From a virus, in the IMG/VR virus record IMGVR_UViG_3300034280_000607, positions 1 through 64,000 of that record: DNA of 64,000 bases; one strand, 5' to 3'. Position 1 is the first letter of the stretch. Every line of letters begins with the position of its first letter. A program made the position numbers and the translations under genes. Under the pieces are notes generated by a model. It had not been told where the DNA came from and searched no databases. It worked only from the letters and a program-made list of their open reading frames with translations. Positions 14,831 through 51,126 of this stretch are shown here, in pieces.

Positions 14831-17800
14831 TTAGTCTATCTGTTTTTTATAATACTCTATCCTGTTTATATTACTCAAGATTGGTAACACCTTAGTCACT
14901 TTAAGAGCAGTACGTTCAGCGTCATAGTCCAACTCTCCATCTTCTTTCTCCACTCCAAATCCGTAATACGTTACAGCTTTTGCAGCAGATCCCCAGTTTC
15001 TCATAGTACGTATGATTGGAAATGCCTCACGTTGTAACTCAGATACAGAGTTAATACTAATATAATAAGTTAAGTCTCGGTTCAAGTCATGCAGCTGACG
15101 CAATACTAGTAAATTATAGATTTTTTTGTCTTTATCATCATCTGGTGCCATAGCTTTTAAGAGCAGATAACTCATCCATAATGTAGTGATTATCTGTATT
15201 TCTTTGACAGCTTTTTTAAAGTTAGCAAGGACCATCTCGTCTTGAATATCTAGTCTTCGTCCCATCATAGCATCAAACATCATTCCAATAACAGCAAGTT
15301 TCTTTTCTCCTGCTAAACGTAAAAATGTTCTATAGTAACCTTCTTCATCACGATCTAGTAAAGCATCCTTGTGTCGAGGATCCCATCTCACACCAATAGT
15401 TTCAGGTAACCAGGATTTAAACAAGAATAACAAACGACCAATAGCGTTATCTCTACCCTTTACAAAAATATCGTTACCTGTTGCACCATGAAGTTTGTTT
15501 GCCAGCTGACGGTACTTCAATATCTTCTTATTAAAGAAATCCTCAAAGCTCAAACCTTCATTTGCATCTGCATTCCATGAACCATATATTGCTTCATCAT
15601 AGTCCCGTTCTTCATTGAGTACATCCCAGAAAGACACATCTCCTTTAGATGTTTTAACCTGCTCACGTTTCATAGCAGAGAGCATCATCTCAGCTTTAAA
15701 GTGATAATCACCACCACTAAGCCAAGTATAAGCTTTTGGAATCATTTCCCTAAACTTATTAAGTGGAGTTTTCTTATCAGCCAACGTTCTTAAGTACATA
15801 CCATCAACTCCTTCGACCATTGCTGAGTCACTTAAAAGTCCAGCTAGTTTACGTGTAAAATTAGTATCATACTTTCCACGGCTCCAGTAATTAGCAGTAG
15901 CACCAGTAAGCATCTTGTTGGCCCACATCAGTTCCTTTTTTCCAAAGTCACGTCCACCTGAAGCATGTATACGATTATTCACTTTACCTACTAATAAGTT
16001 TCTAATAGCTGAGAATGGTGCAAAACCAAGAGCTGTTAGGCGAGTGTTATTAATACCACTATCAATTGCTTTAGTGAGAGAAAACTTACGACCACCAAGT
16101 TTATAATACTGCTGAATCTTTGCGTCCCTAGCATCAATAATAGTTTTACGATCTTCATCAGAAAGAGTATCATTTGTTTCCAACACTTCATTAAACTTCT
16201 TAATATCCTCACTAAGTTTCTGTGCTTCTTTAGCTTTGGCAGATTTATAACCTAATAAAGGTATTATTTCTTTCCAGTCGTAAAACAGTTCATCACTTTG
16301 CCATAGAGAATCTTCTGACTTTAGTCCATAAAAACCTTTTCTAACTGTAAAGTCAGCCAGCGACTGAATACTAGTAGCATCCTTATCCTGACGCACAAGA
16401 GTGTTCAATTTTTTATCAAACTTATATGAACCTTTAGTGTTCTGAATAATATCATTAATTGTATCTACTTCAGCTTTCACAGTATTTTTATGCTTGTAGA
16501 TGAGAGCCATATCACTAAAAAGTTTAGCAATTAATCCCAAGTCAGTAGTACGTTCTTCTACAGCTACATTCTCAGTAATGAATCTGCTTTTAAAGTTTCT
16601 GAGTTCTTTACGACTAAAAGGATTAACAGCTGTTTTTTCTTCAAAACCACTAACAGTTAAAGCATTTACAAACCACTCACCAATACCATTTACAGACTCT
16701 TTTAACGAAGTGAATCCGTATTCTTTAGCTAATCTGTCTGCAATTATAGGAAGAAAGTTACTACCCAAATCTTCAATCTCTTCTTGTGGAAGCCATGTAA
16801 GATTATCAGAGATAAATTTTGTAAACCAGGTATAAAACTCATAAAGCTTTGGATCAGCAGCTATCTTAGCAAAGTTCTCATCATAATAACCTGAGTCTTT
16901 ACCACCTAGCGTTTTAACAGGTATCAAATAAGTATACCGTGCACCACCATAGGCAGTAATCTTTTCACCAAAGAACTTCTGATTCATATACTTTAGTGGA
17001 TTATTCATATCATCAAATTCCTCAACTTTATTCTTAACATACTGATCATAAGTCATTCCTTGTGGAATAATTGACGGATCAGCAGCTGCCTCACTCATTA
17101 TTTCATAAGCATATTCTTCTTTACGATTTTCAAAACGTTCATTCAGCTTGAAAGATTGACTAATAATGTCATTAACTTCCATCTGATTAAAACCCATAGA
17201 TTTCATACGAGCTATCTCAACATCTCTCTGCTGATCTGTATAAGCATCCCGATTTATAAACAACAATGCATTAAAAGCAATAGTATTTTTCTCATTCCAA
17301 GCATGGTATGTTTTCCAGGCTAAAGACTTTTTAGTTTTATCGCCTTCTGCTTCTTTAAGATCTTTACGTAGTTTACGATTTACAGATCTTAGGTTATCCC
17401 AGAATGTCTGAGAATAACGAGTCACTATACCTAATGTTTCAACGCCATCACGGTTTTTCTGCTTTTTAATAAAGATGCTAAAATCTTTTATACCTTGAGT
17501 CATTTTGTCAATAATAGAATAGTTTTTACTATGCTCTTTATTTATTTTAAGATTAATCTCTTTTAAAATGTATGCCAAGTGATTAGGCAATGCCACACCT
17601 GCAGTGCTTAGTTCACGTGTCCACTCTGTAAGCCTTGTAGTATCTACTAGTTTAGTAATATCATCTTCAGACAACTTACCGTTTGAAACTTGCTTAATCA
17701 GCTCAACAGCCATAGCTTGTGAACGTCTGCTCAAAAGAGCATATTCGACCTCATTTTTTTCCAGTTGTTTGCTAAGCTCCGGATCTAGCTTGGGATCATA

Positions 17801-18280
17801 AATATCTGCAATACCTAAAGCTTCAGGAAGACTCTTCCAAGTTTCCACTATTGTGTTAGCAAATTGAAGCTCATTAAAAGTCATTGCTTTAGAAGTATAC
17901 ATAGCTTTTACCAACTCAGCGTCTATACGAGCTAGTTCCAATACAAAGTCTAGCTGCTGGTCGGCATTGGTTTCCAATAAAGCTTTGATAGAGTCAGAAG
18001 TTCTGCTAATGATACCATTATAGTAAGCAGTTTTTTTAAGCTTTACGTCTTTAGAATCTTTACTGTTCTTAATAGCCTGAATAACGTCTTCAGCCTGCTT
18101 CTTTCTTTGGTAAAGTACAGTTAATGTATCCTTTACAATGTCAGACTGCTTCTGCTTTTTCTGTGTAGCTACTGACTTAAATATATCAACAGGATTCTGC
18201 TGGAACAAACCAGTAGCTATACCAGAAACCAGTTCTTCTTTTGTATACTCTTTACCGTTATATATGTATTTGCAAGCCAT
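14831..18280 (-). CDS. Giant virion-type protein downstream of the RNA polymerase gene
   Basis: I chose ATG at 18278-18280 (MACKYIYNGKEYTKEEL) over the upstream TTG. This gives 1149 aa and a one-base TAATG overlap with the RNA polymerase gene, so the two are probably coupled. MACKYxYNGKxYT is a start often seen in large phage and conjugative-element polyvalent proteins. The sequence is mostly helical. A moderately hydrophobic stretch, TALGFAPFSAIRNLLVG near 755-775, and LKAMAPDDDKDKKIYNLL towards the C-terminus are noteworthy. No enzyme motif was found. In crAss-like phages the gene neighbouring the giant RNA polymerase encodes a co-packaged protein, so an internal/ejected role is likely. It is the last gene of the leftward block. 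Confidence 0.7.
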   Translation of the reverse strand: MACKYIYNGKEYTKEELVSGIATGLFQQNPVDIFKSVATQKKQKQSDIVKDTLTVLYQRKKQAEDVIQAIKNSKDSKDVKLKKTAYYNGIISRTSDSIKALLETNADQQLDFVLELARIDAELVKAMYTSKAMTFNELQFANTIVETWKSLPEALGIADIYDPKLDPELSKQLEKNEVEYALLSRRSQAMAVELIKQVSNGKLSEDDITKLVDTTRLTEWTRELSTAGVALPNHLAYILKEINLKINKEHSKNYSIIDKMTQGIKDFSIFIKKQKNRDGVETLGIVTRYSQTFWDNLRSVNRKLRKDLKEAEGDKTKKSLAWKTYHAWNEKNTIAFNALLFINRDAYTDQQRDVEIARMKSMGFNQMEVNDIISQSFKLNERFENRKEEYAYEIMSEAAADPSIIPQGMTYDQYVKNKVEEFDDMNNPLKYMNQKFFGEKITAYGGARYTYLIPVKTLGGKDSGYYDENFAKIAADPKLYEFYTWFTKFISDNLTWLPQEEIEDLGSNFLPIIADRLAKEYGFTSLKESVNGIGEWFVNALTVSGFEEKTAVNPFSRKELRNFKSRFITENVAVEERTTDLGLIAKLFSDMALIYKHKNTVKAEVDTINDIIQNTKGSYKFDKKLNTLVRQDKDATSIQSLADFTVRKGFYGLKSEDSLWQSDELFYDWKEIIPLLGYKSAKAKEAQKLSEDIKKFNEVLETNDTLSDEDRKTIIDARDAKIQQYYKLGGRKFSLTKAIDSGINNTRLTALGFAPFSAIRNLLVGKVNNRIHASGGRDFGKKELMWANKMLTGATANYWSRGKYDTNFTRKLAGLLSDSAMVEGVDGMYLRTLADKKTPLNKFREMIPKAYTWLSGGDYHFKAEMMLSAMKREQVKTSKGDVSFWDVLNEERDYDEAIYGSWNADANEGLSFEDFFNKKILKYRQLANKLHGATGNDIFVKGRDNAIGRLLFLFKSWLPETIGVRWDPRHKDALLDRDEEGYYRTFLRLAGEKKLAVIGMMFDAMMGRRLDIQDEMVLANFKKAVKEIQIITTLWMSYLLLKAMAPDDDKDKKIYNLLVLRQLHDLNRDLTYYISINSVSELQREAFPIIRTMRNWGSAAKAVTYYGFGVEKEDGELDYDAERTALKVTKVLPILSNINRIEYYKKQID

Positions 18281-21200
18281 TAGCAATTAGTTTTAATGTT
18301 CAGTACGTTAATTATAGTATCAAAGTTTTGCTCGATGTAACTACGATTTACATTCTCTGTAGCAATTGATTTCTGTACAGTTTCTGTACGAGAACCAATC
18401 AGACCTATTATGTTTCTAAGACCTTCATCTAAAGCAGACCTGTCTTTTACTTGTATACCCAGAGACTTGATAATGTTCATAAGCAGATCTATAAAACGAT
18501 CCAGAACAGTTTTATCTCCCTGTACTTCTATAGTGTTCATAAACTGCTGAAAACTTTTATCAGTCATCATCATAGTAACAAAATCATACACACTGGTCAG
18601 ACCATAGTAAAGTGACTTATCTTTAGCAGACAAGAACCCGTCTGTGTTCATTTGGCTCATGGCCATAAGAAGTGATGCAGAGTGCTCAGGATCTTCTAGC
18701 ATTTTGATTTGCACTTGATCAAAAAGGTTATTAATAGCTTTTACCCACTTACGCTGCTCCGGAGACAGTGTAGCTTGATCAGCCATCAGCATATCCACTG
18801 TAAGATGATGCATCAGCTCATGCATAATAACCTCATGAATCTTAGCCTTCATATCTTCAATATCAGTTGCATCAACAATGGCTGCTTTAGGATTAATAGT
18901 AATAGTCCGAGTAGCACGATTGTAGGTACCAGGATCAGCTTGAGACATATCTATCTTAAAAGTCACCTGCTCAATAGAACCAGTCTTACTAATAGCAGTA
19001 ATGATAGCTTTGTTCAAAGGAGAAGTCACCTTGAATAAATTATTAAGAAAACCTTTATAGTCAGTAACTTGTTTTTCTTTACCAAATAACTCAGTAGTAA
19101 ATATTTCTACTGCTTCATCTTTTTGATGACTTATTAAAAGCTCTAAAGGATTAAATACTTCTACTTCCGGAGCTTCGTCAACAGATACACCATCAGTAAA
19201 CTCATTGTATGTAAAATCTGTTGCTACAATATTCTTAGGCACAACCAGTTTCTTAGCTGCACGAGACATACCTACGTAGTAAAGTGCATTCTTTTCTGTA
19301 TTAAACTTAACACCATTACGAGTAATTACAGTGTTAGTTACTACACTCAAACTGCTTGTATCAAAATATACAATGGGAATAGTCATACCCTGTGACTTAT
19401 GTACAGTGATACCATATCCAAAGTCTACACCCTTGTCTATTTCCAGATTAGCATTGATTCCTTTGTGTTTGTCTTTATCATAAAGCTCTACATCATTGAT
19501 AGCCGGATTAAAAATATACCTGTTACCAGTATTTATTTCAGCAAGTTGCATACGTATAGTTTGTACTTCTACTAAATAGTTAGAATAAGAAATACCTTTT
19601 CTCTGATAAAGCTCATTAAGCTCATGTATTTTTCTAAGCTTGTCAGCAAGTTCTTTCTTGTTATTCAGCATCTGCTGAGGCGTAAGTTCAAAATCCAAAG
19701 AGTCATTAGCTGATAACTGCAAATAGCTGAACGATGCACTAGTAGGAAATCCTTTCATACCTGCTTTCTGCAGATCTTCTAAAGCTTTAGATGTACTAGT
19801 AATTACTACAGAACCTTCATCTCTTACAGTGACATCTTGCACCATATAACTTACCGAGTTAGCCAAGTGACCTTTTTCTATCTGCTTAGTTTGAGAACCA
19901 CCATAACCAACAATTTTTTCACCAGGTTTTAATGGGCCACTGTAACCCAACACTTGACGTGCAGCTTTATTAATCTTAGCTACACCATCATTAGTATAGT
20001 TAATAATAGTGATGTCTTCCAGGTTATTTTTCAAATCATCAATCAACTCTTCATTATATTCCGATCTGCTTAACTGCTTCATGTTATCTGAGTTCTCAAA
20101 CTCATATTCTACAAAGTCAGAATTGTTACGAATGTTAGTTAAGACAGTAAGAATATTATTATCCTTGGTTCTGAAAACTGTTGTAAGCTCAGACTTGTTA
20201 GGATTAGCAAAAGCTTTGGCAAGCTCTTTAGTCTTTACACCAGGCATAACTTCAGGAATCTGTTTAGGATCACCCATAAAGATAATTTTAAAACCTTCTG
20301 CTTTAGCAGCAGCAACCAACTTCTCAAAGTCTTTATTAGCAAGCATAGAAGCCTCATCTAAAACAATGACGTTCTTTATTCCGGTAGCCCTGTCAGTAAG
20401 CTTTTTAGTAAACTTAGGTCCAGGTTTGCGAGGATCTCTGGATTCAGTTACAGAAGCCTGTACAGTCATTGGTAATTCCTTAGCTCCATATTTTACAATA
20501 TTATTACCTAATGCTACAGTAGCAGCATGTGTAGGAGCCATGTATAAGAACTTAGTAGCTCTTGACTTCTGACCCATGTAACGATCCAAAATACCAATAA
20601 TAGATGTCTTACCTGTACCTGCATATCCTTCTAAAGTGTAAGTACCATCAAAGGTTCCATCTCCTGAAGTCCTGGCTTCTACAAAGTCAATAATCTTTTT
20701 TAAAGCATCTGCCTGTTCTATACTAAGCTGGAACTCTGTTGGTACAGTGATTCCATTATAATTAAATGTTGTAGTAGATTCTTCCTGTTGAACCTGCTTT
20801 TCCTGTATTGGTGTATTCATCTGTTGCATCACACGACGTGTGACATCGTCAGATGTAATTAGGTCAGCATATGAACTTGGTTGAAGAGAGTAAATACGGT
20901 TGTCAAAAGCTACATAGTATCTGTTTTCTTTACTACCAATCTGTATAGTGACAACTTTTTCTGGATACAGGATAGCAGCATGTGTAAGCTGCACTTTCAT
21001 AAACAGTCCCTTATCTTTTACGAGAGCACCTTTTGCTCCATTATTATTAGCATAGAAAACATCAAAACTACCTGCGTTTTCTTCTAGGATAAAGTTTCTA
21101 CCACCATATGTTACCTTGGTAAATAACTCCTGATCCTCTTGAGGTGCTTTAATAACTTCCTGCTCCTCGTTTTGCTCTGCTAAAATTTCAGCATCTTCAA

Positions 21201-24200
21201 TTACACCATAATAAGCTTCTTGTAAAGCATTAATAAACAAGTTTAGACCACCCGTTTCCCAAACAGTATTCTTATTAGTAGGCTGATGAGTAGCATTACT
21301 TAACCATTCCTGACCACCTATTTTAGTAATTTCTTCTACCAAACGAGGATGTTGCTTAAGCTTAGCTTCCAGGATCTGTACCATCAGATCATATGTAGAT
21401 CCTTTACCAAGACCTTCAGGTTTATACTTACCCTTGTTTTTCTGGTAAGCTTCTTCTGCATCTTTATAAGTAACCCCATCAAATGTAACAGGATAAGACT
21501 GAGTCAAATTACCTTTCTGCTTAGCCAGCTCTGTAGGATTAGTAAGAGCTGCTGCCAGACCTTTAGAGTTAGAAGAGATTTCTACACCTTGACTAACAGG
21601 AGCATCCTGCTTATTCAACAACTTACTAAACCCTTCTTCAAATACTATATTAGATGGTATCTCTGCAGAAGAGAACATATCAGCCATCTCTTGTGCACTG
21701 TATCCGTTCAGGTTTTTACCTGTAGCACTATAGGCTACCATGAACTCTTTATCTGAATTACGGTTAGCATGATCATACAACCTTTGTACCTGATAAATAA
21801 TTTGTGCTTTAGTTCTACTAGGATGTTTTTCTTTAGTTAAATCTTTAGTTATAATAGCAAAACTTTGACCTTGAGCACCCCAAGCTTGTCCATATTTAGC
21901 ACCAAACTTTTCTTTAGCTGTTTTAGCTGATCCTGCACCGTGCCTTCCTTCTGTATTAGACCCAAACACAAACACTTGGTTAGGTTGCAAGCTTTCTATC
22001 TTACCTGTGTAAGTCTTAAGTTTAGTTGTTTCTGCCTGACTAAATGTTTTTGCATATACATTACGAATAGCCTGCAAAGACTTTTCTATAACTTCTGGCG
22101 TACTGAGTGTCCTGCTGCCTATACCTGCAAAGTTCTTTGTAAGTGTAGGAGTTTCAGTAAGTACAAAGTTTTTAGCATCATAGTCGTATTTATACCAACC
22201 TTGTTTTGTACCATCAAACACATACACCGGCTTACCTTCATTGATAGCCATTTGAACAGCATAGCCTGTACCTCCTTTAACTAAAGGAATAGCTGCTATT
22301 CTATTATCCCCAGCTTTATCAGAAGCATTCTCACCAGGTTGTTTAATAGTACCTAACGCATAAACAGCATCAGCATATTTAACCTGAGCCCAGTTTCTGA
22401 TGATGTAGTTAGATCTTACAGTTTTATTAGCTGAATCAGTATACATCATTCTAAATGCAGCAGTAGCTTTTTGAGTACCTTCTGCGTAGTCTGTATCAGA
22501 AATATTTACTGGTTTAACACCTGCAGCTCTAAGCTTGCTAGAATCCAACTCTTTAGCACCTGGTTCTCTGTAATGATTATGTTTAACCACCCCAAACTCT
22601 CTACCAATCTGATCCCATTCTGTATCAGAAAGAGCAGCTCCGCCTGAGTGATTAATAAACTCGGCTGGATTATTAGAACCAGAAACTGCAGGCTGTTGTT
22701 GCACAGGAGCTACAGGCGGAACTGTTTCTTGAAATGCTGCATCATCCTCTACGTTATTATTACCTTCTATAGCTGATACCAGCTCTGGATTGTTGAAGTC
22801 ATACTCCTTGATACCGTTGTATCCCAGAATATTTATTCTTTCATATGTAGCAGCACCAGAAGGATCTCCAATAGGACTCACTCTCTTATACAGATAGTTT
22901 ACATTACGGCTACCTGCTTCTACAAACTCACTTGTAAATGTATCATTGATGAGAATATACGGAGGATATTTAAAGTTTACTGTACTTCCTTGTTCTTTAA
23001 GAGATTTTGACTCACTGTTTGACAGAGGAACCTTTAAAGAGTCTGCTATGTTCTTTCCTTTAGAATCAGCTTCAAAATCACCAATCTTAATAGTAAACGT
23101 GTTTACATCTTTAAGCTCTTCTTTACCTACTAACTTCTTTACCACACGCTTAAAAACATTATCTTTTGCTCCTGTAAAACCACTGTAAGTAGAATACTTA
23201 AAGGATTTCGCAAACTGCTCAGGATTGTTCTGCACAATCTGCAGAACCAAAGACTCCATAGCACCTGGATCATCCATGTGCATACTGTATGCAGAATCTA
23301 TAACTCCTATAACTTTCTTAAAATCTTCATCACTAAAGTAATAATCTACGGGAATAAACCTTCCTATGTTACCTGCATCACTAGTTAAGAAAGGATATAT
23401 AGCCAAGTCTTTAGCAAGCTGACGTATCTCTTCTTTATCAGAAGTAGCCAGTTCATAAAACCCACTGATAATGCCTTTCTCATCAATGTCAGATCCAAAT
23501 AAGGCACGGATACCAATAGTATATGCTTTTTGTCTAGGAGCCTGTTTGACTTCAATGTTTTTCAAAAAACCATTGCTTTTAAACTCCGGATCTTTAGCAA
23601 GGTTCACAATACGTTTACCTAAAGAACTTTCACCATTAATCATTTGTGCACGCATGCCACGGGCGTTCTGAAATAGTTCCAGTTCCGGCATTGTGTACAT
23701 ATACGCTTTGATACCATTAAAAACAGTATCATACAGATTGATATAACTATTTTTTCCAAGCTCTTCTTTGTTCTTACCCTGGTTAGCCATTAGTATATCA
23801 ACTATACTTTCTATGTTTTTACCAGAGCTGATAGGAAATAGAATGTTATACATTTCTTGAGCTACCATCAAACTATGCTTTATAGAAGCTCCAATCTCAC
23901 CCTGAGCCTGAATTTCCAGCATACCTGTATCTTTATTACGCTGAACAGTACCTGCTATATTACTTAGACCAATAAAGTTAGTAGAACCAGAGAGTTTATT
24001 TAGCTGATTAAGCTTCTGACGTGTAGCAAATACGTTGGGACCAATACCCTTGGTATAAGTGTATACACTACCAAGTATAGTGTTTAACTCACGACCAATG
24101 TCTTCCATTCTCTTAAACAAATTCAGACTGTCATATTGAACTGTGTTATACTTAAGCATCATATTACGAACAGAACTATAACCTTTATCTTTAGCTATCT

Positions 24201-27200
24201 TTTCTAAAATAGTTTCAGCATTTAACTTTTCATTATATTCTATACCTGACTCAGGATCTTTATAACTTAATTGTTCTTTTTGCTCAATTTGATTAACAAA
24301 GTTATATTGAGATAAAGCACCAGCTTCTATAGCTTTTCCTATTAACCACATGTCTTCCAGTGTTTCCGGATCCAGTGCCTGGTCACGATCTTGGTCTTCT
24401 AAATATTGTTCTACTTCCGCCATGCTGCCGAAGTATCCCTGCTTCATCAATCTTTCAGCAATCTTGCTTTGAATCTCCAGCATAGCAGTTTCCATAGCAT
24501 TACTATCATACTCACCAAAAGAGTCTTGCTTCTGATCCATCAGAGTAAAGAGATGCTTGATAGCACCTTGGGAAGTAAGATCCATCACGAACTCAATAGG
24601 AGCTGCATTACCATCAGCGTCAGTGAGCATCTCAAAAACACCAATAGCACTCATTGCTTTTTCTTCCCAATTGAACTCACGCAAAAACTGGTTCTTAGCG
24701 TTGTCCACTGACTCTGTAAACATCATATTTAGGTTCTCTGATATATTACGGGTCTTTCCTATAAAAGAGTTAGAACTACCGGGTTGTCCCAAGTAAAGTA
24801 GATCAATCACCTTTCCTTTCTTGGACAACTTAATTTTGATAGGATTTTCTTTTTCCAAATCATCCACTACCATACCTAGTCTAAGAACCTTGTCTTGAAA
24901 ATCTGCTTGTGCAGAAATCAGGTTGGCAAATACACCCACACCCACTTTACCAGAACGGTTGTCATTAAAACGATTAATAGAGGTTATAAAGTCCAGTGGT
25001 AGCATAACGTCTTTGTCTGAAGTGATACCGTACTTTTCTAGTTCAACTTCCCTTTCAGCCACTTTTCTTTTTACCTCAGGCATATCAATAGACTTGGTAA
25101 TTTTATCATATGCAGCAGGGTGAGTAAGAACCATCCAATGAATATCACGATAGAGCTGACCCAGTTGTTCTTCATTCATATTTTCAACATCTTCAGTACT
25201 ATCCAGCTTATAGTTAACTAGTTCAAAAGTACTGGGACGTTCCACTTTAAACTTTGGAACTTCATTATTTCCGTATTTATTTTTTACAGCCTGAGCCAGA
25301 TAATTATTAAAATTAGAATATATGCCTTTATCGTCAGCCTGTTCACCAGCAGCTTTAGCTATCTTTTTAGCAGCAGCTACCAGTTCAGTATACTCTTCCT
25401 GATTGGCACCAAGTTTTTCTATAGTATTATCTTTATAGTTAAACTTTGTTGCATAAGCATAAAGTTTATCTACGTCAAAGTCAGAACCCATTTGACCGGT
25501 GATACCATCTGGAACAATAATAGTATTCTCCATATAGGCAGGTAGAAAACCTACCACTTCTATAGGAAGCATAGAAGGATGAGACTGGTTAGGAATACGC
25601 GTACCTACCAACTGAAACAATTCAGCTGGCATCTTAGAAGTATTTAATATTTTTACAGTGGTGTTTCCTACTTTTTCTTCAGTAATATATTTAGAAAGAT
25701 CAACTAGTTTTCCATTTGCATCTCTAAGATACTGAGATACAATCACCTGTGCAGGCTTTACCTCATCACCTTCTTTACGAATATAATTTAACTTGACGTC
25801 TCCATCTTTAAAGCTTTTGGCGTAACTATCTGTCCAAATGATACCACTCTTTACACCTTTGGCAAGGTTTGAAAAGTTATACTTAGCTCCAACTCCGGAT
25901 ACCTGTACAAAGCTAGATCCTTCTACTTTCAACATCACGTTCTTATTGATCATAGAGTTAATCAATCCCTGAAACTTCTTCAGCTTAAACTGCTGTTCTA
26001 ACGGCATCAGAAACTTACCAGTTTTTTCATCTAGTTCTATGCTTTTAAGATCATTTTCCCCGTAGCTTCCTGTAGTGTCATTTATGATAACATCTTTAAG
26101 TAAACGATGCAAACCTCTATGAGATCTATTTAAGTCTCCTAATTCTTTTTGTAACTGTTGTACTTGTAAATCAAATAAACGGGAACGAACAAGTTCTTTT
26201 AAGCTTTTAGCTTGTGTACCACTCATTTCTTTAATACCTTTTAAAGAAAAAGTTTCATTCAGCATGTTATCAAACAAGGTTCTGTTCATCTGAGAAACAG
26301 TACGTATTTCGTCTTTTTGATGAGGGATTTCCTGCTGTGTACGAAGACCATCACGGCTGAGTGTCTGTCTAGCTGCTGCCAGATCATCTTTAGAAGGTTC
26401 AATAAACTCAGAACCATTCTCATTAAACAGTGCTACTGATTTTATAGGTCGTCCGAGTTTCTTTGCAGAAGCAAAGTTTACAGCTTGTATACCATTTTGT
26501 TCCATCCATTGACGGAGCTTATCACGCTCACTACCAGCTTCATGCTGAGGAATCAATGGATAACGAGAAGACTTTACATAATCTATGCGGTTTAACCCTG
26601 CATCAGCAGTAGCCTCATCTACGTCATTTACATGTACAGGTTTTGTAGGTGTGAATACATAACCTAGTTCTTTATCTGAAAGCTCGTAGTATCCACCAGG
26701 ACCAGCTTTTTGGATCTTATCATATATTAATTGCCAGATTTCTAAAGAAATCTTACCTTCACTCATAAGATTATCTATATGCTCATTGAGTGTAATGTAT
26801 TCTTGAGCGTCTGTAATAGTGTTTTCTGTATCACCAATTTTATACTCTACGTCCGCTGCAGTAAAAGCCTGGTAGTTTGAAGAAGAGTAACTCTCTCCAT
26901 TTTTCATCTTCCAGCTGTAACTTCCTTGAGCACCCGGTGCAATTAGTGCAGCAGCACGCTTAGAAAATTCATCCCATGTAGAAGAAACTAATTTCACCTT
27001 ATCCTCACCACTAATCTCATTGAACTTAGAAGCCTTATTAAAATCTTTAAATGATTTGAATGCCAAGGCAGGATCAAAACGCAGAAACTGGATCATCTTT
27101 ACCTGAGTGTTGATGTAATTCAGTTTCATGTCCATCATCATTAGACGAGCCAAGTCACGACCTTTTAGTCCTGACTGACGTAAACGATTGATATAGTCTG

Positions 27201-30084
27201 TGTTCTTAAAGCCATTAATAGAAGTGGGGAAACTAAAGTTTCCATTCTCTTGTTTAATTATACCGTTAGCCAAAAATTCGTTAATCTGCTGCTCACTAGA
27301 CTGTTTCATATCTTCCAGAATAGCTTCACCCACTATAGTGCTATATTTGGCATTAATCTGGTCTAGGTTCATCTGACCGCTATACAGATCATTACGGAAC
27401 TCTTGTAAAACACTATTAACATTTAAGGAAGGAATAAAATAAAATAGTCTGCCTGCTAGATCAAAGTTCTCTAGCTTAACATCTTTACTGTGCTTAATAG
27501 TAGCCAGTATACGGCTAATCTCAGGTGCTGCAAATGCAGTGTATGCTCTTTCAGTAAGACCAGATGAATATTGCAGTTCACCTTGTTCGTTCAAGAAGTA
27601 GTCACGACCTTTACCCAAAGGCTGGTCATCATTATCTATAAAGAACTCCTTAGTCATCTTGGTCTCAATAGTAGTGGTCTTATCAGACAATGTAAAGTTG
27701 ATATAAGTAGCAACATTGAGGTTCTCCTGATGCTTGAGCAGCATAGTAACTGTCTGCTCTTTATCTGTAAGAGACTTTCTCACCTTACCGTCTTTACCAG
27801 CTTCCTGTTCACGGATACCGTTAAAGTACTGAGGAATAAAAGTGCTAATTCCTTTCTTTACACTTTCCCAAAATGATTTATTAGGACGTCCCAGTGCACT
27901 GTTAGTAACAGAAACAGTTTGCCCAAGCTTCCACTGACGTTTCTTATTTTCAATATAGTTAGGAAGTATGTATAGATACTTCTGTTTACCATCTGCTGTT
28001 TGTGCAGAGGGAATCTTGTACTTACCAGGATTTGCTTCATAGTAGAGGATAGCCAGCTTACGCATAGAACCTTTCTCATCCTGAAAACCATAATTGTCTT
28101 CAAACACTAATTCTGCATTATCTGCATAAGACTTGTAGATATTATCTAATAGATTGTTCTTGGCAAAGATGACATCAAAATCATTGCCTTTACTAAGAGC
28201 TTTAGCTATCCGGGGTGTGATATAATCCAGTTCTTTATCTGTAAACTCAATACCCAGTGTAGCAAAGAACTCTTTAAACTTAACCACCTTGTCTTTACCT
28301 ACAGCAGTCTTACCTTCTTCTATCAACTTGGCAAGTTTTTCTATTTTAGCAAGATTAGGTTTTAGTTCATTCAGTGCAGAACGCTTGAAGAATTCTGATT
28401 GCTTGTGCACTTCCAACCAATCACGGGATATTTGGTCTTCTACTGTATCACGATTTGAGTTGATCACCTTTACATCAGTGATACCAGTTACCTGATTTCC
28501 ATCCTTACGGGTTTTATATAAAAGCAAGGTCTCTTGAGCAAAAGCTTTAGTAGCAAAGGTTAAAATGTCATTGATCTTGTCCCACTCATTGTTTTTTTCA
28601 AAACGGTTAAGCTTAGTTAGAAAATCATTCAGGTAAGGTCTTGCATCTGAACGCTTGTATAAACTAGCCTTAAAAGCATTCAGTTTACCTGCAGTATCAG
28701 TAAATCCAGTAAGAGCCATTTCACTACCTGCATACAAGATATCAGCAAACACATCATTAGAATCTGCATATATAGGAATACCAAGCTCATACTCACCGGT
28801 CTTGATAGTTTGTACCAAAGCTTTTACACGTACAGAAGCCGTGTCTCGAGGGTTTGTTTCAAATACACTACGATCAAAACGTTCACCTACTTCTTCCTGT
28901 GAGATTTCAACATCCTCATTATTATCTACTTCTTGATTAGCTACATCCTGAGAATCTATTGTCTGTATAGCGTTCTTAACCATCCGGATACCTTTCCGAG
29001 CAAGTTCAGCTACAACAGCATCCTTGTATTTGTCAAAGTTGTTTACAATCGTATCATATGTTTCTGCAGCTTTAACCATGTCTTCATAATTATTGACATA
29101 TGCAAGTACTGGAAACTCATTCAAAATATCATTATAAGACGATGAAGCTTTTACATCTGCCAAGTCTTGGTCAGAATTGATGATTCCATTAAGAGCCATC
29201 TTTAGGTTATCTGCTACTTCTGAGTAGATACCTTTCACTGTACGAAATGCTTCAGCTGGTGTAATGTCTAGCTTTTTATTAGGAGCAATATCACCTAGAG
29301 TGTTAATCACGCTAGCCATAATATGAGAAGTATACTTCAGATCATTCTGAGAACGGATTAGATCTTTGTTAATGCCAGCTGCAATCTGTTCTGTAGACTT
29401 TGTCCTAATAGAACGGAACAAAACTCCTCCCTGATTAACAGGATTTTGAGCTACATACCTTTTAAAACTCTCCTGGTCTTGCTTACTGCCCAGTATGAGA
29501 ATCTGCTCAGGTTCAAATACAGCAACCGTACTTCCTTCTTTCTGTCCGGCATCTATACCTATTACAGCATCATAGTTTCCACCCTGGGTTTTAATAATTC
29601 TAGGATTAGTGTACTCATCTGTATTATGTACTTCTTCAGGAACGTCTGCAAGTTCTGAGGGAGAATTATAAGGTTTCTGAACGTTGACAACAGCAGATAT
29701 AACTTTTCTCTTTATGAGGAAACCAAAAGTTTCAGCGTAGCTTTTAGCTGTGGTAAAGTAGGTAACATATCCTTTGAACTTACCATCTGCAGGTAATAAG
29801 TGTTCCATTGCACCATGGTACATTACATCTTTGACCTTACTATCCGGAAAGATAGTATTTACATATGCATTATACTGGTCTAAGTTACCAATATCAGAAA
29901 GCTCTTTTGAACCATTAAATACCTCAGCTACCCCAGGTTTTACTAAAGATCTATCTGCTACTACTTGATAGTTATCAGCACTGGGGATCTTTCCATAAAT
30001 CAAAAACTCTTTCCAAGCACGGTTTTCACCGACCTTAGCAACCAAAGCTTTCCACTCCGGACTGGTAATGTTAGGACAAATCAT
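18280..30084 (-). CDS. Giant polyvalent virion protein: ADP-ribosyltransferase-like, RNA polymerase, SLOG, macro-like, NADAR, helicase, zincin
   Basis: One open frame of 3934 codons. Residues 1-40 (CPNITSPEWKALVAKVGE) form a start common in polyvalent proteins. About 80-200 is an ADP-ribosyltransferase-like domain (HG at 90-91, YFTTAKSYAETFG, YDAVIG, VFEPEQI). About 1535-1539 is DFDVD, the metal-binding catalytic motif of crAss-like single-chain RNA polymerases. About 2475-2660 is a SLOG/DprA-like Rossmann domain (SGGAA, GGTGYAVQMAINEGKPVYVFD, AGIGSR). About 2695-2800 carries FGSNTEGRHGAG. About 2864-2957 is NADAR. About 3110-3590 is an SF1 RecD/Dda-like helicase (GYAGTGKT from 3153, VLDEASM, GDPKQIPE, TVHKSQGMT). 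HELMHH at 3755-3760 is a zincin. It is likely packaged and injected to start early transcription. Domain limits are approximate. Confidence 0.88.
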   Translation of the reverse strand: MICPNITSPEWKALVAKVGENRAWKEFLIYGKIPSADNYQVVADRSLVKPGVAEVFNGSKELSDIGNLDQYNAYVNTIFPDSKVKDVMYHGAMEHLLPADGKFKGYVTYFTTAKSYAETFGFLIKRKVISAVVNVQKPYNSPSELADVPEEVHNTDEYTNPRIIKTQGGNYDAVIGIDAGQKEGSTVAVFEPEQILILGSKQDQESFKRYVAQNPVNQGGVLFRSIRTKSTEQIAAGINKDLIRSQNDLKYTSHIMASVINTLGDIAPNKKLDITPAEAFRTVKGIYSEVADNLKMALNGIINSDQDLADVKASSSYNDILNEFPVLAYVNNYEDMVKAAETYDTIVNNFDKYKDAVVAELARKGIRMVKNAIQTIDSQDVANQEVDNNEDVEISQEEVGERFDRSVFETNPRDTASVRVKALVQTIKTGEYELGIPIYADSNDVFADILYAGSEMALTGFTDTAGKLNAFKASLYKRSDARPYLNDFLTKLNRFEKNNEWDKINDILTFATKAFAQETLLLYKTRKDGNQVTGITDVKVINSNRDTVEDQISRDWLEVHKQSEFFKRSALNELKPNLAKIEKLAKLIEEGKTAVGKDKVVKFKEFFATLGIEFTDKELDYITPRIAKALSKGNDFDVIFAKNNLLDNIYKSYADNAELVFEDNYGFQDEKGSMRKLAILYYEANPGKYKIPSAQTADGKQKYLYILPNYIENKKRQWKLGQTVSVTNSALGRPNKSFWESVKKGISTFIPQYFNGIREQEAGKDGKVRKSLTDKEQTVTMLLKHQENLNVATYINFTLSDKTTTIETKMTKEFFIDNDDQPLGKGRDYFLNEQGELQYSSGLTERAYTAFAAPEISRILATIKHSKDVKLENFDLAGRLFYFIPSLNVNSVLQEFRNDLYSGQMNLDQINAKYSTIVGEAILEDMKQSSEQQINEFLANGIIKQENGNFSFPTSINGFKNTDYINRLRQSGLKGRDLARLMMMDMKLNYINTQVKMIQFLRFDPALAFKSFKDFNKASKFNEISGEDKVKLVSSTWDEFSKRAAALIAPGAQGSYSWKMKNGESYSSSNYQAFTAADVEYKIGDTENTITDAQEYITLNEHIDNLMSEGKISLEIWQLIYDKIQKAGPGGYYELSDKELGYVFTPTKPVHVNDVDEATADAGLNRIDYVKSSRYPLIPQHEAGSERDKLRQWMEQNGIQAVNFASAKKLGRPIKSVALFNENGSEFIEPSKDDLAAARQTLSRDGLRTQQEIPHQKDEIRTVSQMNRTLFDNMLNETFSLKGIKEMSGTQAKSLKELVRSRLFDLQVQQLQKELGDLNRSHRGLHRLLKDVIINDTTGSYGENDLKSIELDEKTGKFLMPLEQQFKLKKFQGLINSMINKNVMLKVEGSSFVQVSGVGAKYNFSNLAKGVKSGIIWTDSYAKSFKDGDVKLNYIRKEGDEVKPAQVIVSQYLRDANGKLVDLSKYITEEKVGNTTVKILNTSKMPAELFQLVGTRIPNQSHPSMLPIEVVGFLPAYMENTIIVPDGITGQMGSDFDVDKLYAYATKFNYKDNTIEKLGANQEEYTELVAAAKKIAKAAGEQADDKGIYSNFNNYLAQAVKNKYGNNEVPKFKVERPSTFELVNYKLDSTEDVENMNEEQLGQLYRDIHWMVLTHPAAYDKITKSIDMPEVKRKVAEREVELEKYGITSDKDVMLPLDFITSINRFNDNRSGKVGVGVFANLISAQADFQDKVLRLGMVVDDLEKENPIKIKLSKKGKVIDLLYLGQPGSSNSFIGKTRNISENLNMMFTESVDNAKNQFLREFNWEEKAMSAIGVFEMLTDADGNAAPIEFVMDLTSQGAIKHLFTLMDQKQDSFGEYDSNAMETAMLEIQSKIAERLMKQGYFGSMAEVEQYLEDQDRDQALDPETLEDMWLIGKAIEAGALSQYNFVNQIEQKEQLSYKDPESGIEYNEKLNAETILEKIAKDKGYSSVRNMMLKYNTVQYDSLNLFKRMEDIGRELNTILGSVYTYTKGIGPNVFATRQKLNQLNKLSGSTNFIGLSNIAGTVQRNKDTGMLEIQAQGEIGASIKHSLMVAQEMYNILFPISSGKNIESIVDILMANQGKNKEELGKNSYINLYDTVFNGIKAYMYTMPELELFQNARGMRAQMINGESSLGKRIVNLAKDPEFKSNGFLKNIEVKQAPRQKAYTIGIRALFGSDIDEKGIISGFYELATSDKEEIRQLAKDLAIYPFLTSDAGNIGRFIPVDYYFSDEDFKKVIGVIDSAYSMHMDDPGAMESLVLQIVQNNPEQFAKSFKYSTYSGFTGAKDNVFKRVVKKLVGKEELKDVNTFTIKIGDFEADSKGKNIADSLKVPLSNSESKSLKEQGSTVNFKYPPYILINDTFTSEFVEAGSRNVNYLYKRVSPIGDPSGAATYERINILGYNGIKEYDFNNPELVSAIEGNNNVEDDAAFQETVPPVAPVQQQPAVSGSNNPAEFINHSGGAALSDTEWDQIGREFGVVKHNHYREPGAKELDSSKLRAAGVKPVNISDTDYAEGTQKATAAFRMMYTDSANKTVRSNYIIRNWAQVKYADAVYALGTIKQPGENASDKAGDNRIAAIPLVKGGTGYAVQMAINEGKPVYVFDGTKQGWYKYDYDAKNFVLTETPTLTKNFAGIGSRTLSTPEVIEKSLQAIRNVYAKTFSQAETTKLKTYTGKIESLQPNQVFVFGSNTEGRHGAGSAKTAKEKFGAKYGQAWGAQGQSFAIITKDLTKEKHPSRTKAQIIYQVQRLYDHANRNSDKEFMVAYSATGKNLNGYSAQEMADMFSSAEIPSNIVFEEGFSKLLNKQDAPVSQGVEISSNSKGLAAALTNPTELAKQKGNLTQSYPVTFDGVTYKDAEEAYQKNKGKYKPEGLGKGSTYDLMVQILEAKLKQHPRLVEEITKIGGQEWLSNATHQPTNKNTVWETGGLNLFINALQEAYYGVIEDAEILAEQNEEQEVIKAPQEDQELFTKVTYGGRNFILEENAGSFDVFYANNNGAKGALVKDKGLFMKVQLTHAAILYPEKVVTIQIGSKENRYYVAFDNRIYSLQPSSYADLITSDDVTRRVMQQMNTPIQEKQVQQEESTTTFNYNGITVPTEFQLSIEQADALKKIIDFVEARTSGDGTFDGTYTLEGYAGTGKTSIIGILDRYMGQKSRATKFLYMAPTHAATVALGNNIVKYGAKELPMTVQASVTESRDPRKPGPKFTKKLTDRATGIKNVIVLDEASMLANKDFEKLVAAAKAEGFKIIFMGDPKQIPEVMPGVKTKELAKAFANPNKSELTTVFRTKDNNILTVLTNIRNNSDFVEYEFENSDNMKQLSRSEYNEELIDDLKNNLEDITIINYTNDGVAKINKAARQVLGYSGPLKPGEKIVGYGGSQTKQIEKGHLANSVSYMVQDVTVRDEGSVVITSTSKALEDLQKAGMKGFPTSASFSYLQLSANDSLDFELTPQQMLNNKKELADKLRKIHELNELYQRKGISYSNYLVEVQTIRMQLAEINTGNRYIFNPAINDVELYDKDKHKGINANLEIDKGVDFGYGITVHKSQGMTIPIVYFDTSSLSVVTNTVITRNGVKFNTEKNALYYVGMSRAAKKLVVPKNIVATDFTYNEFTDGVSVDEAPEVEVFNPLELLISHQKDEAVEIFTTELFGKEKQVTDYKGFLNNLFKVTSPLNKAIITAISKTGSIEQVTFKIDMSQADPGTYNRATRTITINPKAAIVDATDIEDMKAKIHEVIMHELMHHLTVDMLMADQATLSPEQRKWVKAINNLFDQVQIKMLEDPEHSASLLMAMSQMNTDGFLSAKDKSLYYGLTSVYDFVTMMMTDKSFQQFMNTIEVQGDKTVLDRFIDLLMNIIKSLGIQVKDRSALDEGLRNIIGLIGSRTETVQKSIATENVNRSYIEQNFDTIINVLNIKTNC

Positions 30085-44500: not shown

Positions 44501-45097
44501 TTCTCCAAGATTATAATATTTATTTCCACCACGTTGTGTGTATATTCCTAAATCATCTACCCCTTTGTTTGCCAAAGAATTGTATTTCAAAGAATTCTTT
44601 AAAGCTGTATTCTCTAAAGCATATTTACCTGCGGTTTTTAATCCTTTACCAACAAGCCCTGCTCCAGAAACAAGCATTTCAGCTTCAAATCCAGGAACAA
44701 CAATATTATCCCATGTTCTTGCAGCTAGCTTACTATCTGCCATATCACCAAGAAGCCCTTGTGTATAATTACCTTGTTCATCAGAATATCCTCCATGCGT
44801 AGCTGCATATTGTTTAGCAAACTTATATCTTCTGGCTTCATCTAAATCTTTAACAGGAGTGTATTGAGAAACAGAGGGTTGACTTTCAATAATTCTTCTA
44901 GCCCTTTCTTGTTCTTGTCTTTTAGCTGTTGCTTCAGCTAAAACTCTTCTTTGAGGACTATCATTCATTCTAGCTATCTGAGGATAGTAAGATTGCATAT
45001 CTCCTCTTGCTCTATTATTAGATTTGACTAATCCCATCTGAGCTTTAGGAAGCATAGACATGTAAAACTGTTGTAATATAGAATCTGATCTTTTCAT
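41516..45097 (-). CDS. Large virion protein with dispersed GG motifs and a DUF5754-like segment
   Basis: The 1193-aa product starts MKRSDSILQQFYMSMLPKAQ; the LPKAQ element is shared with the next gene's N-terminus. At about 575-645 there is a basic module (VTRSNDRKGKTHKVTGPDG, KYFGDSKLGQ, KAAFYARHKKNL) resembling small DUF5754-like units found in large phages and giant viruses. Repeated GG motifs occur (KNGGVIKDN, MKNGGEMIK, MKYGGTNNP, MANGGYVVT, WQEGGLVEM, YKKGGSTFS, YQTGGLVNG). Acidic linkers (EEMEEEDMEDMM) separate segments. Its first base overlaps the stop of the stabilization/muzzle-like gene. A virion cargo or tail role is inferred from its place. Confidence 0.65.
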   Translation of the reverse strand: MKRSDSILQQFYMSMLPKAQMGLVKSNNRARGDMQSYYPQIARMNDSPQRRVLAEATAKRQEQERARRIIESQPSVSQYTPVKDLDEARRYKFAKQYAATHGGYSDEQGNYTQGLLGDMADSKLAARTWDNIVVPGFEAEMLVSGAGLVGKGLKTAGKYALENTALKNSLKYNSLANKGVDDLGIYTQRGGNKYYNLGEGFGDLGAEGDIKKRFLDKLTDDELKDYLSGLSYKQQREFYGLPRYDIDPRIRNEAKELIANSKDLYPIDGWFLNSDWKSFGNEMRGVMKNHGLDYKNQLDVEKFRKMFVDNELDNIYFDAQRNQIKFPDLAIHSSFKSFLSKNKNGGVIKDNRGQWAHPGKVTRISSPNITMQGVPYPVLGVGSNGEKQMMYPGQDYNFSGASYVDEYPIMKNGGEMIKRKDGSYSKRGLWDNIRANKGSGKKPTKEMLKQEHKIKSKEMKYGGTNNPGFEALPEYVQAKILSNMGYGGYYNPMMEEGGEPNGGMALGQMMAVSDKMNKLRQFISPDKNLDPWIASKLAVMDDSADAITNYMMYNPEAQGDGEEMEEEDMEDMMANGGYVVTRSNDRKGKTHKVTGPDGTVKYFGDSKLGQHPKDPKRKAAFYARHKKNLENNPFFRAFARKTWQEGGLVEMQKGGNKALVDNTYVASKPISAFYPGSDYPSSEEQLWNIIKSSPKLMWDKLNVDMPAYVYSKIARAGEKIGLTPNSELFPTYGNQSLTGAQLELQRLDEYQKDRWKKIRKGEYKKGGSTFSGNAFYQNGGQPQLEDYPDYNSWRQALLAYQQSGVDNMDLYTSDPSLSELYPAPQSFQGRPLDVRLPVQEKPSKKSNNYKGVSIVDYLNSMGLASDFNTRKQIASEKGIKNYIGTSDQNMQLLSMLSSKPYTKEFKSFPSKKSRSSSANPSVNPSDKEANNDFFTYATNVYKSANPNANMIVDKADDYKPNMFEVMQNKLNTGAYGSDAAAMSLRDNPNNPLGAIGAWAFNNLIAEPALAFASSSGKILTGKGDARDALITGASMIPYANRLVNKLPAFGRLIRMKSLNPMSRNIGNPMFEELTLENLFSGANKFMPSVRKVAAQYKYDMNKLAQAAKTDKKLAKLLQDAAEEEEIIMGIGTKMKPGTTMPWNKFNKRAQANINDLYERSNYQTGGLVNGAEMEVTPEQAEMLRQQGYEFEII

Positions 45098-48000
45098 TAC
45101 CTCTGACTAAGTTGTATTTTCTGATTAGATATTTTAAATAACATCTTTACATCATCACTCTTAAACTTTCTTAAAAACACTTTGTTTAAATTATGACGAA
45201 ACTTCTTACGCTCTAATGGTGATTTTTGATAGTTTACATAAGCTGGATTGATTTTAAATTTATATCCATTAGATTCTGTAATGAACATTGGGATGTTTGT
45301 ACTTGTAGTAAACTCTCCTCTATCTTTAGTAATATCCCAAAACTGATTAAACCGATATTTCTGTTCTTCTTTAGAATAGTTTATTCCTATAGACTGAGGT
45401 CTTATCTGAGGATAACTAAGCATTGCCACAGGGTTAGCTTTATTCTTAAGCTCTAGTTCTAAAAGTCCAGATACCTGTTCTGAGTTATAGACAATAGCCT
45501 GATCAAAATTTGCATCTAATACATGAAACTTATCTCTACAATCATTGTGCATCTTGTAAGCTTCTAATATGTATTCTATGTTTCTCATAGATACAACTTG
45601 CTGACCGCTAGCTGATACAAATTCTATTTCAAAAGGATAGTCTACACCATAGTAGTTAGAATACTTATCACACCTTATATTATGTTTCCAAATAGAGTTT
45701 TGGTTAACACTCATAAAATGAGCTTTACCAGGAATTAAAAAACTAGGTATCCAGTCATGAAAACTTATCCATGTTTGACTTTTAGGATCATAAGACATGG
45801 TCCAACTAGCATCTTCAAAATATGCAGTGTTAGTCAAAGGAATATAAACCTTACCATTAGAAGCACTCACTTCATAAAAACCTTTAGAGTCAAACAATAA
45901 GTTAGTCTTTAAAGGTTTATAATCTTTTTTGCTTACGTATATAATCTCATTAGTGTTATCATATATCATTTGTACACCTACAGCAATAACAGGATTATCA
46001 GCAAAAGGATAATCAGGATAAATTCTTAATAGTTCACTTGGTAAATATTTAGCAAACCACCATTTAAGACCATCTCTTGATATTTCTTTAATTTGCCCTG
46101 CATACTGAAATATCTTACCTTGGTTTTGACTCACCCAGAAAACACCATGTGTACAACCTAATGTAGCAAGTTTATTTTGACAAGAACCATATTCATATGA
46201 TTCATCTGAGTTAGTAATACTTTGTAAAGGTTGATTAAATAATCCACCATCTCCCACTGTAATTTTAGTACCAGCATCTGTCTGAAGTTGATCCACACCT
46301 AGAAATTGTAATGGACTTTGTCTAGACATCATAAACAGTGCCCCTGTCTTATTAATATTTTTAATAGATGTAATAGGTGAACCAAAATCTTTATAATTAT
46401 TAGCTAAAAATACTCTCCAATTATCCTTAACTCCTTCAAGTTGTTGTGGAAGTGAGTATGCTACCCTAGTAGGATAGTAGGTAAAACATGTAGAAAACTT
46501 CTTAGGATCATAATATCTTGGAAGTAAATTACCGTAAGAAACATATTGATTAAATATTTTACTAACACTTAAAGAATAATCATACTTATAAAAGTTTCTA
46601 CTCTTAATTATATCTGATCTAAAAAGAGATTTATAGTCAGAATAATTATAAGGATCATAGTGACGTTTTTCAACAAGTTCTTCCCAGTCTCTGAAAGCAA
46701 GATTCACTTCACTTTCTACAAAAAAATCTCTAACACCTGAATTAAATAAATAGAAATAACCTTTGCTAACAAAAAAAGTAGAACTATCTCTTTCATCTAA
46801 ATGTCTATTATTACTCATATTACCAAATAACTTATAAGAAGGTCTCTCGGAATTTATCCAAAACCTAGGATAAGCTATGTTGATATAATTTCTATAATCA
46901 TGTTCTGTTTCATCTGGCTCACCCATAAGCCAAGAGTTAAAAAAGAAAAATGAGTTCTTTTCTGTAAATCTGTTTATGTAAGTATCTCCATTAAATAAAA
47001 CACTTGTTGACTGACTTTTTGCATCAGAAATAATAGAATGTACACATGCGGAAACAGGAACTTGTTTTATCTGATCCAGTTGACCATATTGAGAAGAAAA
47101 AACAACTTTAATTGCACCATAGTGTCCAGATATTGTTGATTCTACTTCTTTATTTATTTTTTTACCGGGTACAGCAGAAAGTCTAAATCTTGAGTTGTCT
47201 ATACTAATGGGATTATTCTTATCTCTTTCAATTTGAATAGCTACATAACCTGATCTAAAAACATTATTTATATTATAATTTGAATTAAAGGACTGTATGT
47301 TAGAATCAACATAACTAGAATCATCTATACGAAATCTACGGTCTCCTTCGTTTGTTATAATAGATTTATTATAATGTCCATGTGAATCATATTGTAAAGC
47401 ATTCTGTCTTTTAGGAACCATTCCATAAATAACATTTAACATCTGTTCACCAACAGCTGTTGCTTCAACATAAGACATTGCAACACTAACTGTCAAATTA
47501 TATGTTCCAATAATACTATTAGTTATAGCGATAACAGGATTGGGAACACTTGCACCTGAACCAAAAAGAGAAAAAGATACAGGATGATTGGTCATTTTAG
47601 CAAGTGTAAGTTGCTTTTCATAATTAAGCTTATCTGTTTTACCAAGTGTAATATTACCATTGTTTGCAATAGCAGATAGAACATTTCCAATAGAACTAAT
47701 AACAGCAATAACACTAGAAAATATACCAGAAAAGTTAGTTAACGTTTTAAACTTTGGATGCTTATAAGGCTCAGAAAAAAGACCTCTAGACTTTCCGTAA
47801 ATTTCTTGATATACCTTTAATTCAGACACACCTAAAAAAGGTCTAGTAAATGTAGTGTCAGGACTATGAAAAGATAGATGATCTTTTTTATATAATGTTA
47901 AAGGATATGCTAAATTAACACCATTTGAGTCACCACTTCTTCTAAGATCTTTACGAGCTGCTCTTAATTTTGCTTTTGCTTCTCTTCTTTGTCTACGTCT

Positions 48001-50259: not shown

Positions 50260-51126
50260 TCAGAATCCCTCAGTACTTTTAAACATATTATAATATCTAG
50301 AATACTGTGCTTTTCTATTAGCTTGCCATAGTTTATACATTTCTCCAAAGTCAGGAGTGTTCACTATAGTCAAAGCATTATTACGAGCAGCTCTTAACCG
50401 TTGTTCTATTAGTTGCATTTTCTGTGTTACATCTTCTCCATTCATGTATAAGTTTTCAAGAAGACGCTGCTTAAGTGCATATTCATAATATTCATTAATC
50501 ATAGGATGATCTAACACTAGCAAGTTACCATCCTCATCTTCTAATGCTCCTTGATAAGATATGAATAAATTACCTTCTTCTACATTAGTATATAAGAACT
50601 TATTTTTAATATACCCTGCGGGATGAGAATCATTTATTGCATCTATTCTACCAGTTGATGTTGCAATACTAATAGGAGTGAATGTATCATACACTCTTGT
50701 TTCATACTTTCTTTTTTCAACCACCTGAACAAATATCTTCTCTCCGGTATTACACTCAACAGTGTATGTTTTTTCACAAGCACATTCTGGATCCGGTTCT
50801 CCACATTTAGAACAGTATGAACTATTTAGAATAACATTTTCTGTTTCTCTTCCTGCTAATACAGGATTTGTAACACTATGTTTTCCACACAAATAAGCAT
50901 AATTTAAAACATAAAAATCATCAGGGAGTTTTGTTTTACTCTTCGTAATTTCTAAAACTTTTTCTTTAGTTCCATATATTCTAAGACCTAAGTCATAGTT
51001 AACTCTTTGAGCCACCTTAATAAGTTGACCGGGTTCAATCATGCCCTCATTATTATAAGTGGCAAAATCAGTTGCCACCTCATTAAGAAGTTCATCAAAT
51101 GTTCTATAAGAAAGTTCTGTTTTCAT
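50260..51126 (-). CDS. crAss-like tail ring/connector protein
   Basis: The 288-aa product is of the type found between connector and muzzle genes in crAss-like phages. It has a helical start (SYRTFDELLNEVATDFATYNNEG, IKVAQRVNYDLGLRIYG), a beta-rich middle and a helical end. The middle has a Cys cluster (YCSKCGEPDPECACEK, about 101-116) that may bind zinc or be an insertion. Its start overlaps the stop of the previous gene by 4 bases and it lies 2 bases before the HExxH gene. The ring-protein call comes from gene order and size; no direct structural proof is available here. Confidence 0.6.
   Translation of the reverse strand: MKTELSYRTFDELLNEVATDFATYNNEGMIEPGQLIKVAQRVNYDLGLRIYGTKEKVLEITKSKTKLPDDFYVLNYAYLCGKHSVTNPVLAGRETENVILNSSYCSKCGEPDPECACEKTYTVECNTGEKIFVQVVEKRKYETRVYDTFTPISIATSTGRIDAINDSHPAGYIKNKFLYTNVEEGNLFISYQGALEDEDGNLLVLDHPMINEYYEYALKQRLLENLYMNGEDVTQKMQLIEQRLRAARNNALTIVNTPDFGEMYKLWQANRKAQYSRYYNMFKSTEGF

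Follow-up and report, generated by a model that had tools for sequence, protein, structure and literature searches.

The 64,000-base window analysed here (positions 1 to 64,000 of IMG/VR record IMGVR_UViG_3300034280_000607) encodes, in one chain of 3,934 aa, a crAss-like virion RNA polymerase joined to ART, SLOG-like, macro and NADAR-like modules, a helicase and a zincin. With several unrelated catalytic domains in a single chain, among which a zincin and an ART-PolyVal domain are typical, its classification as a polyvalent protein is well supported, and this domain set bears out the polyvalent plan proposed in the initial annotation. At a probability of roughly two in three, the protein is considered to be an RNA polymerase of the phi14:2 gp66 type with swappable NAD/ADP-ribose cassettes, which would be packaged in the virion and would deliver counter-defence as protein at entry.

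An ORF check revealed an uninterrupted frame with an ATG start, in agreement with the single frame described earlier, the coordinates of which were exact and free of internal stops; the strand, which had not been given, is minus. From the base composition of the coding strand about 295 stop codons are expected in this frame and none is observed; the other two frames of the same strand contain 290 and 573. The main genes identified in the window are as follows.

14831..18286, minus strand: gp65-like gene, 1,151 aa, downstream (phi14:2 gp65, E 1.7e-4; downstream protein of Fpv1, E 7.8e-6)
18280..30084, minus strand: giant ORF, crAss-like virion RNA polymerase with accessory modules, 3,934 aa
30101..36070, minus strand: gp67-like gene, 1,989 aa, upstream (phi14:2 gp67, E 1e-27)
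45097..49905, minus strand: virion structural protein, 1,602 aa, homologous to an Fpv1 structural protein
50260..51126, minus strand: tail tubular gene (phi14:2 g072, E 9e-8)
51779..52384, minus strand: IHF-like protein (phi14:2 g073, E 6.8e-6)

The synteny gp67-polymerase-gp65 is that of phi14:2, and the gp65-like gene overlaps the end of the giant ORF by 7 bases. A Pfam search of the giant neighbour genes gave nothing convincing, and no RNA family was found in the window with Rfam. Both Crassvirales signature genes of the structural block, IHF and tail tubular, were matched, the former being part of the crAss-like phage signature (Yutin et al. 2021, PMC7886860); no homologue of the Crass-type major capsid protein, portal or terminase was found in the 69,337-base linear, apparently incomplete record. 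Another gene of the virion block (1,193 aa, window 41516-45097) contains a peptidase-like stretch at residues 846-990 (phrog_2307, L-alanyl-D-glutamate peptidase), perhaps with a role in passage through the cell wall.

Within the giant protein the following parts were distinguished, from the N-terminus onwards.

29461..29937, minus strand: ART-PolyVal, residues 50-208 (Pfam match 87-195), with H90 and Y109 of an H-Y-E/Q type site
22765..29460, minus strand: RNA polymerase body, residues 209-2440
25468..25482, minus strand: catalytic DFDVD, residues 1535-1539, DxDxD in 6/6 aligned crAss-like polymerases
22018..22671, minus strand: probable SLOG-like module, residues 2472-2689, weak profile match
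21610..22017, minus strand: macro domain, A1S_2505 family, residues 2690-2825 (NCBIfam, E 2e-28)
21190..21582, minus strand: putative NADAR-like module, residues 2835-2965, weak profile support
20809..21135, minus strand: module X, residues 2984-3092, kept before the helicase in close relatives
19231..20769, minus strand: SF1 Dda/RecD-like helicase, residues 3106-3618, motifs intact
18385..19167, minus strand: zincin, residues 3640-3900, HELMH at 3755-3759, with HExxH and a third ligand position

Profile and PDB matches, together with the catalytic motif, corroborated the domain order and the crAss-like polymerase of the initial annotation. In a phmmer search against the PDB, residues 736-1723 matched 6VR4, the gp66 protein of phi14:2 (E 1.8e-16), as the best and sole polymerase match, and DFDVD aligns with the DxDxD of phi14:2, Fpv1 and the gut crAss-like phages cr50_1 and cr113_1. 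An N4-type (T7-like single-subunit) polymerase was ruled out, since the PDB polymerase match is to the crAss-like 6VR4 only. About 70 residues soon after DFDVD (1549-1619; window 25228-25440) are missing from L004, a 79%-identical relative.

The database entries for phi14:2 gp65, gp66 and gp67 are annotated from virion MS/MS, and virions of crAss001 contain gp47, gp49 and gp50 (PMC10172136). The packaging and early transcription put forward for this protein stand by homology to these virion proteins, and by that route only; judging from the homologues, the giant polymerase would be packaged, delivered with the genome and active early. In this process it would be enclosed in the capsid, pass the tail partly unfolded, refold in the cell and transcribe the early genes, as proposed for homologues (PMC10172136, PMC10136315), and the helicase may aid the opening or pulling in of the incoming DNA.

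The NAD/ADP-ribose modules were assigned at different strengths. The ART domain matches PF18760 at residues 87-195 with E 2e-5 in the window copy, which is under the curated cut-off; 6/7 members of its family match (best 1.9e-10), and H90 and Y109 are invariant in 7 relatives. The SLOG assignment is probable: the Pfam family cpYpsA is found weakly in 8/35 members (best 0.013), an invariant NHSGGAxxxD motif is present, and the cr113_1 gene carrying a homologue was named 'DprA-like' by its depositors. For the macro domain, an AlphaFold2 model based on a 31-sequence alignment reached pLDDT 90, and its top PDB matches were TARG1 and macroH2A (macroH2A1.1) at TM about 0.6, with viral macrodomains also found; because the model recovers these structures, the earlier guess of a 'macro-like' block proves right. 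The NADAR assignment is likely but weak, with PF08719 detected in 7/27 members (best 3e-4), no match for the window copy itself, and YbiA ranking first among PDB matches with E 0.03. PDB sequence searches with the ART, SLOG and A1S profiles returned nothing significant, and a single-sequence AlphaFold2 model of the SLOG-macro-NADAR stretch (pLDDT 34) was left uninterpreted. Module X, which is 35-81% identical in five relatives, matched no known family.

In order to see how widespread such fusions are, 80 loci were retrieved by the polymerase core alone, and 72 non-redundant polymerase frames, counted where both score and motif were present, were obtained from them. Because these loci are the best-scoring ones, the fractions given here describe relatives near the query set rather than all crAss-like phages. 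The frames have a median length of 3,604 aa and a maximum of 6,432; the zincin shares the frame with the polymerase in 59/72 and the helicase in 27/72, one or more of the four NAD/ADP-ribose modules (ART, SLOG, macro, NADAR) occur in 23/72, and two or more in 6/72. When ARTs were retrieved by ART sequence only, 26/84 lay in the polymerase ORF and another 26/84 in the directly adjacent one. The order of modules varies: SLOG stands before the zincin in L039, zincin, SLOG and macro precede the polymerase in L060, the helicase precedes it in L054, and the macro domain lies inside it in L105. All eight modules of the window are united in a 4,189-aa frame of IMG/VR contig 3300042880_000420 (L115, L196, L259), in which the NADAR/macro order is swapped relative to the window and the polymerase core is 65% identical.

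In a separate group the polymerase core is broken into two genes with their own termini (L074, L068, L073, L076, L077, L081, L082, L086, L095, L097). A ferritin-like gene (PF00210, E 1e-11; L074:9162-9641) is located exactly between the halves in L074 and overlaps the first, and the remaining split loci show a similarly sized gap there. A search of the L074 gap against Rfam gave no RNA family.

The C-terminal part of the protein is well defined. The helicase matches phrog_325 (Dda-like, E 1e-53) and AAA_30 (E 6e-22) and has all SF1 motifs, namely Walker A, DEAS, GDPKQ and the late motifs. In the zincin, HExxH is kept in 102/112 hits, and in a 26-sequence alignment the third ligand position is Asp3834, where most relatives have Glu. 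Among solved structures, the profile of these 26 domains hit 9sfn, an internal virion protein of a phage (E 7.5e-11), 8vb2, the tetrameric PhiM1 ejection protein (E 2.9e-5), and also small zincin peptidases of archaea.

It had been suggested that the zincin could release working enzymes from the 3,934-aa polyprotein by cleavage, in the head or after injection. Retention of HExxH and of the third ligand position is compatible with such self-processing, as are the linkers between modules, which tolerate insertion and loss, and the proposal of zincin processing, citing the cleaved DdrB of P1, by Iyer et al. 2017 (PMC5512222). The suggestion nevertheless found no support and is now regarded as quite improbable, since the zincin accompanies crAss-like polymerases with or without accessory modules, including those with none of the modules searched for, resides in the separate protein gp65 in phi14:2, changes its place relative to helicase and SLOG, and has ejection proteins as its nearest solved relatives. 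In addition, the N4 virion polymerase, which contains an HExxH domain, is reported as packaged unprocessed (PMC5512222), and full-length recombinant N4 virion polymerase showed no degradation (PMC12633501). Most likely, the zincin serves ejection or the cleavage of host proteins.

Comparison with relatives points to exchange of the modules. L004 is about 79% identical to the window over the shared parts; it lacks residues 2471-2689, the SLOG module, as a clean absence, and has unrelated sequence in place of residues 50-208, the ART domain. The replacing segment (about 170 residues, L004:3128-3649) has no Pfam match and is perhaps another effector. In L113 the core is 26% identical to that of the window and SLOG 81%, and in L036 the values are 63% and 47%, comparisons that are biased by ascertainment, the modules having been found by module searches; the trees, the L004 comparison and the test on synonymous sites suffer less from this bias. 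For 42 phages possessing both parts, AU tests showed the SLOG data to reject the clade of the core tree (p 2e-9), and the core data to reject that of the SLOG tree (p 7e-48). As the clades were picked from the trees, these p values are optimistic; the log-likelihood differences, 200 and 610, are large.

When the window is compared with L004, divergence at fourfold-degenerate sites reaches 0.49 and 0.48 in two polymerase stretches and 0.56 in the helicase, versus 0.12 at residues 2785-2990 (Fisher p 2e-11). By this measure the NADAR region is a recent exchange tract relative to L004, for which protein constraint is no explanation. Identities of the helicase and zincin roughly follow those of the core, and these therefore look like longer-term parts. 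Taken at the level of sequence comparison, the NAD/ADP-ribose modules are shown to move independently of the polymerase, as exchangeable cassettes. Relatives gain, lose and reorder the very blocks listed in the initial annotation, so that, judged by evolution, the domains behave as separate modules.

These relatives also bear on whether a chimeric contig or a lost stop has joined separate genes in assembly or gene calling. The window comes from a single metagenomic record; L004, from another metagenome, has most of the fusion at 79% identity, however, and dozens of independent contigs contain comparable fusions of up to 6,400 aa. Ratios of dN/dS between the window and L004 are 0.06-0.08 for the polymerase, 0.16 for NADAR and 0.13 for X, indicating that all three are under purifying selection. 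An artefact is thus hardly credible. A pseudogene reading was considered and dropped.

One of the closest known systems is phi14:2 gp66 (6VR4), which has the homologous polymerase with DxDxD, giant gp67- and gp65-like flanks and a zincin in the block, but is 2,180 aa long, with none of the accessory modules found here and its zincin in gp65. The 4,401-aa structural protein of Flavobacterium phage Fpv1 (phrog_16227) likewise combines a polymerase core, 31% identical, and a C-terminal zincin in one chain; unlike in the window, SLOG, macro, NADAR, ART and helicase were not detected in it, and about 1,600 extra residues precede the polymerase. Similar giant fusions, on which the initial annotation was silent, are already present in public gut crAss-like genomes: in cr50_1 (4,774 aa, 'DNA helicase') the polymerase is fused to macro and helicase, and in cr113_1 (4,328 aa, 'DprA-like') to SLOG. 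Both have fewer modules than the window protein, and each is named after one domain. The cr113_1 gene (L006:2803-15789) contains 73 in-frame TAG codons, which shred its translation under the standard code; in this phage TAG seems to code for an amino acid.

The virion polymerases of N4-like phages (Schitoviridae) are also giant packaged proteins fused to a zincin and, in some cases, to ART or lysozyme, but their polymerase is T7-like and single-subunit, and the part of Iyer et al. 2017 considered here describes no macro/NADAR fusion in them (PMC5512222). A SLOG domain 39% identical to that of the window was found in Klebsiella phage Pylas (NC_049444.1:42410-42952), in a gene annotated as virion RNA polymerase; unrelated virion polymerases may therefore share the same module. 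The concept of polyvalent proteins goes back to Iyer et al. 2017, whose definition gives the N4 virion polymerase as an example and makes no mention of crAss-like phages (PMC5512222). The phage systems of Iyer et al. 2022 (PMC9503650) comprise the same families, with SLOG, macro and NADAR co-occurring and predicted to act against ADP-ribose-based defence; there, in contrast, the modules typically stand alone except in RNA virus polyproteins, and crAss-like phages do not appear in that survey. Giant multidomain transcription proteins of crAss-like phages are already known (PMC7886860, PMC10136315), and no description of a crAss-like polymerase fused to NAD/ADP-ribose modules was found in the open-licence literature.

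A counter-defence role of the modules is plausible from the known functions of their families. Macro, NADAR and SLOG would neutralise NAD-derived host defences at entry, ahead of phage gene expression, either by clearing ADP-ribose off phage DNA or proteins that a DarT-type attack has modified, or by capturing or breaking down soluble ADP-ribose signals, while the ART may modify host targets or proteins in the manner of T4 Alt. NADARs, a phage one included, act on guanosine-ADP-ribose in DNA (PMC11125620), and for SLOG, sensing or processing of ADP-ribose derivatives has been proposed (PMC9503650). Counting against this role, a phage NADAR that cleared guanosine of ADP-ribose in vitro did not protect cells from DarT1 (PMC11125620).

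The modules could instead serve transcription itself, by acting on ADP-ribosylated DNA as template or NAD-capped RNA as transcript, or by sensing an ADP-ribose ligand and controlling the polymerase, rather than being free effectors. Their covalent tie to the polymerase, often with a helicase, in many lineages agrees with this, as do the closeness of the macro model to TARG1 and the removal of ADP-ribose from guanosine in DNA by NADARs (PMC11125620). It is unlikely in view of the 49/72 crAss-like polymerases that lack these modules and of ART being as often in a neighbouring ORF; moreover, the modules lie on either side of the polymerase, once inside it, and in varied order, an arrangement more in keeping with cargo than with a built-in allosteric element. 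A possible, if doubtful, further reading is that the packaged polymerase clears its own template: helicase, TARG1-like macro and NADAR would together strip the ADP-ribose left by DarT-type toxins on thymidine and guanosine in the incoming phage DNA, opening the way for early transcription, the modules being swapped between distant polymerases to match defences. Under the preferred reading, delivery of counter-defence as packaged protein, modules that come, go and are exchanged quickly while the polymerase changes more slowly would be expected where host defences shift; the polymerase chassis would have to be delivered anyway, and counter-defence would ride along.

crAss-like phages dominate the human gut virome, and to our knowledge little is understood of how they withstand host immunity at entry. 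On the preferred reading, if true, counter-defence would arrive in protein form ahead of all phage gene expression, and from the modules that a phage carries one could read a testable prediction of the host defences it meets. It suggests that N4-like and crAss-like phages, whose virion polymerases are unrelated, independently made these into polyvalent carriers, and it would provide candidate functions for part of the unexplained bulk of the 3,000-6,000-aa crAss-like proteins.
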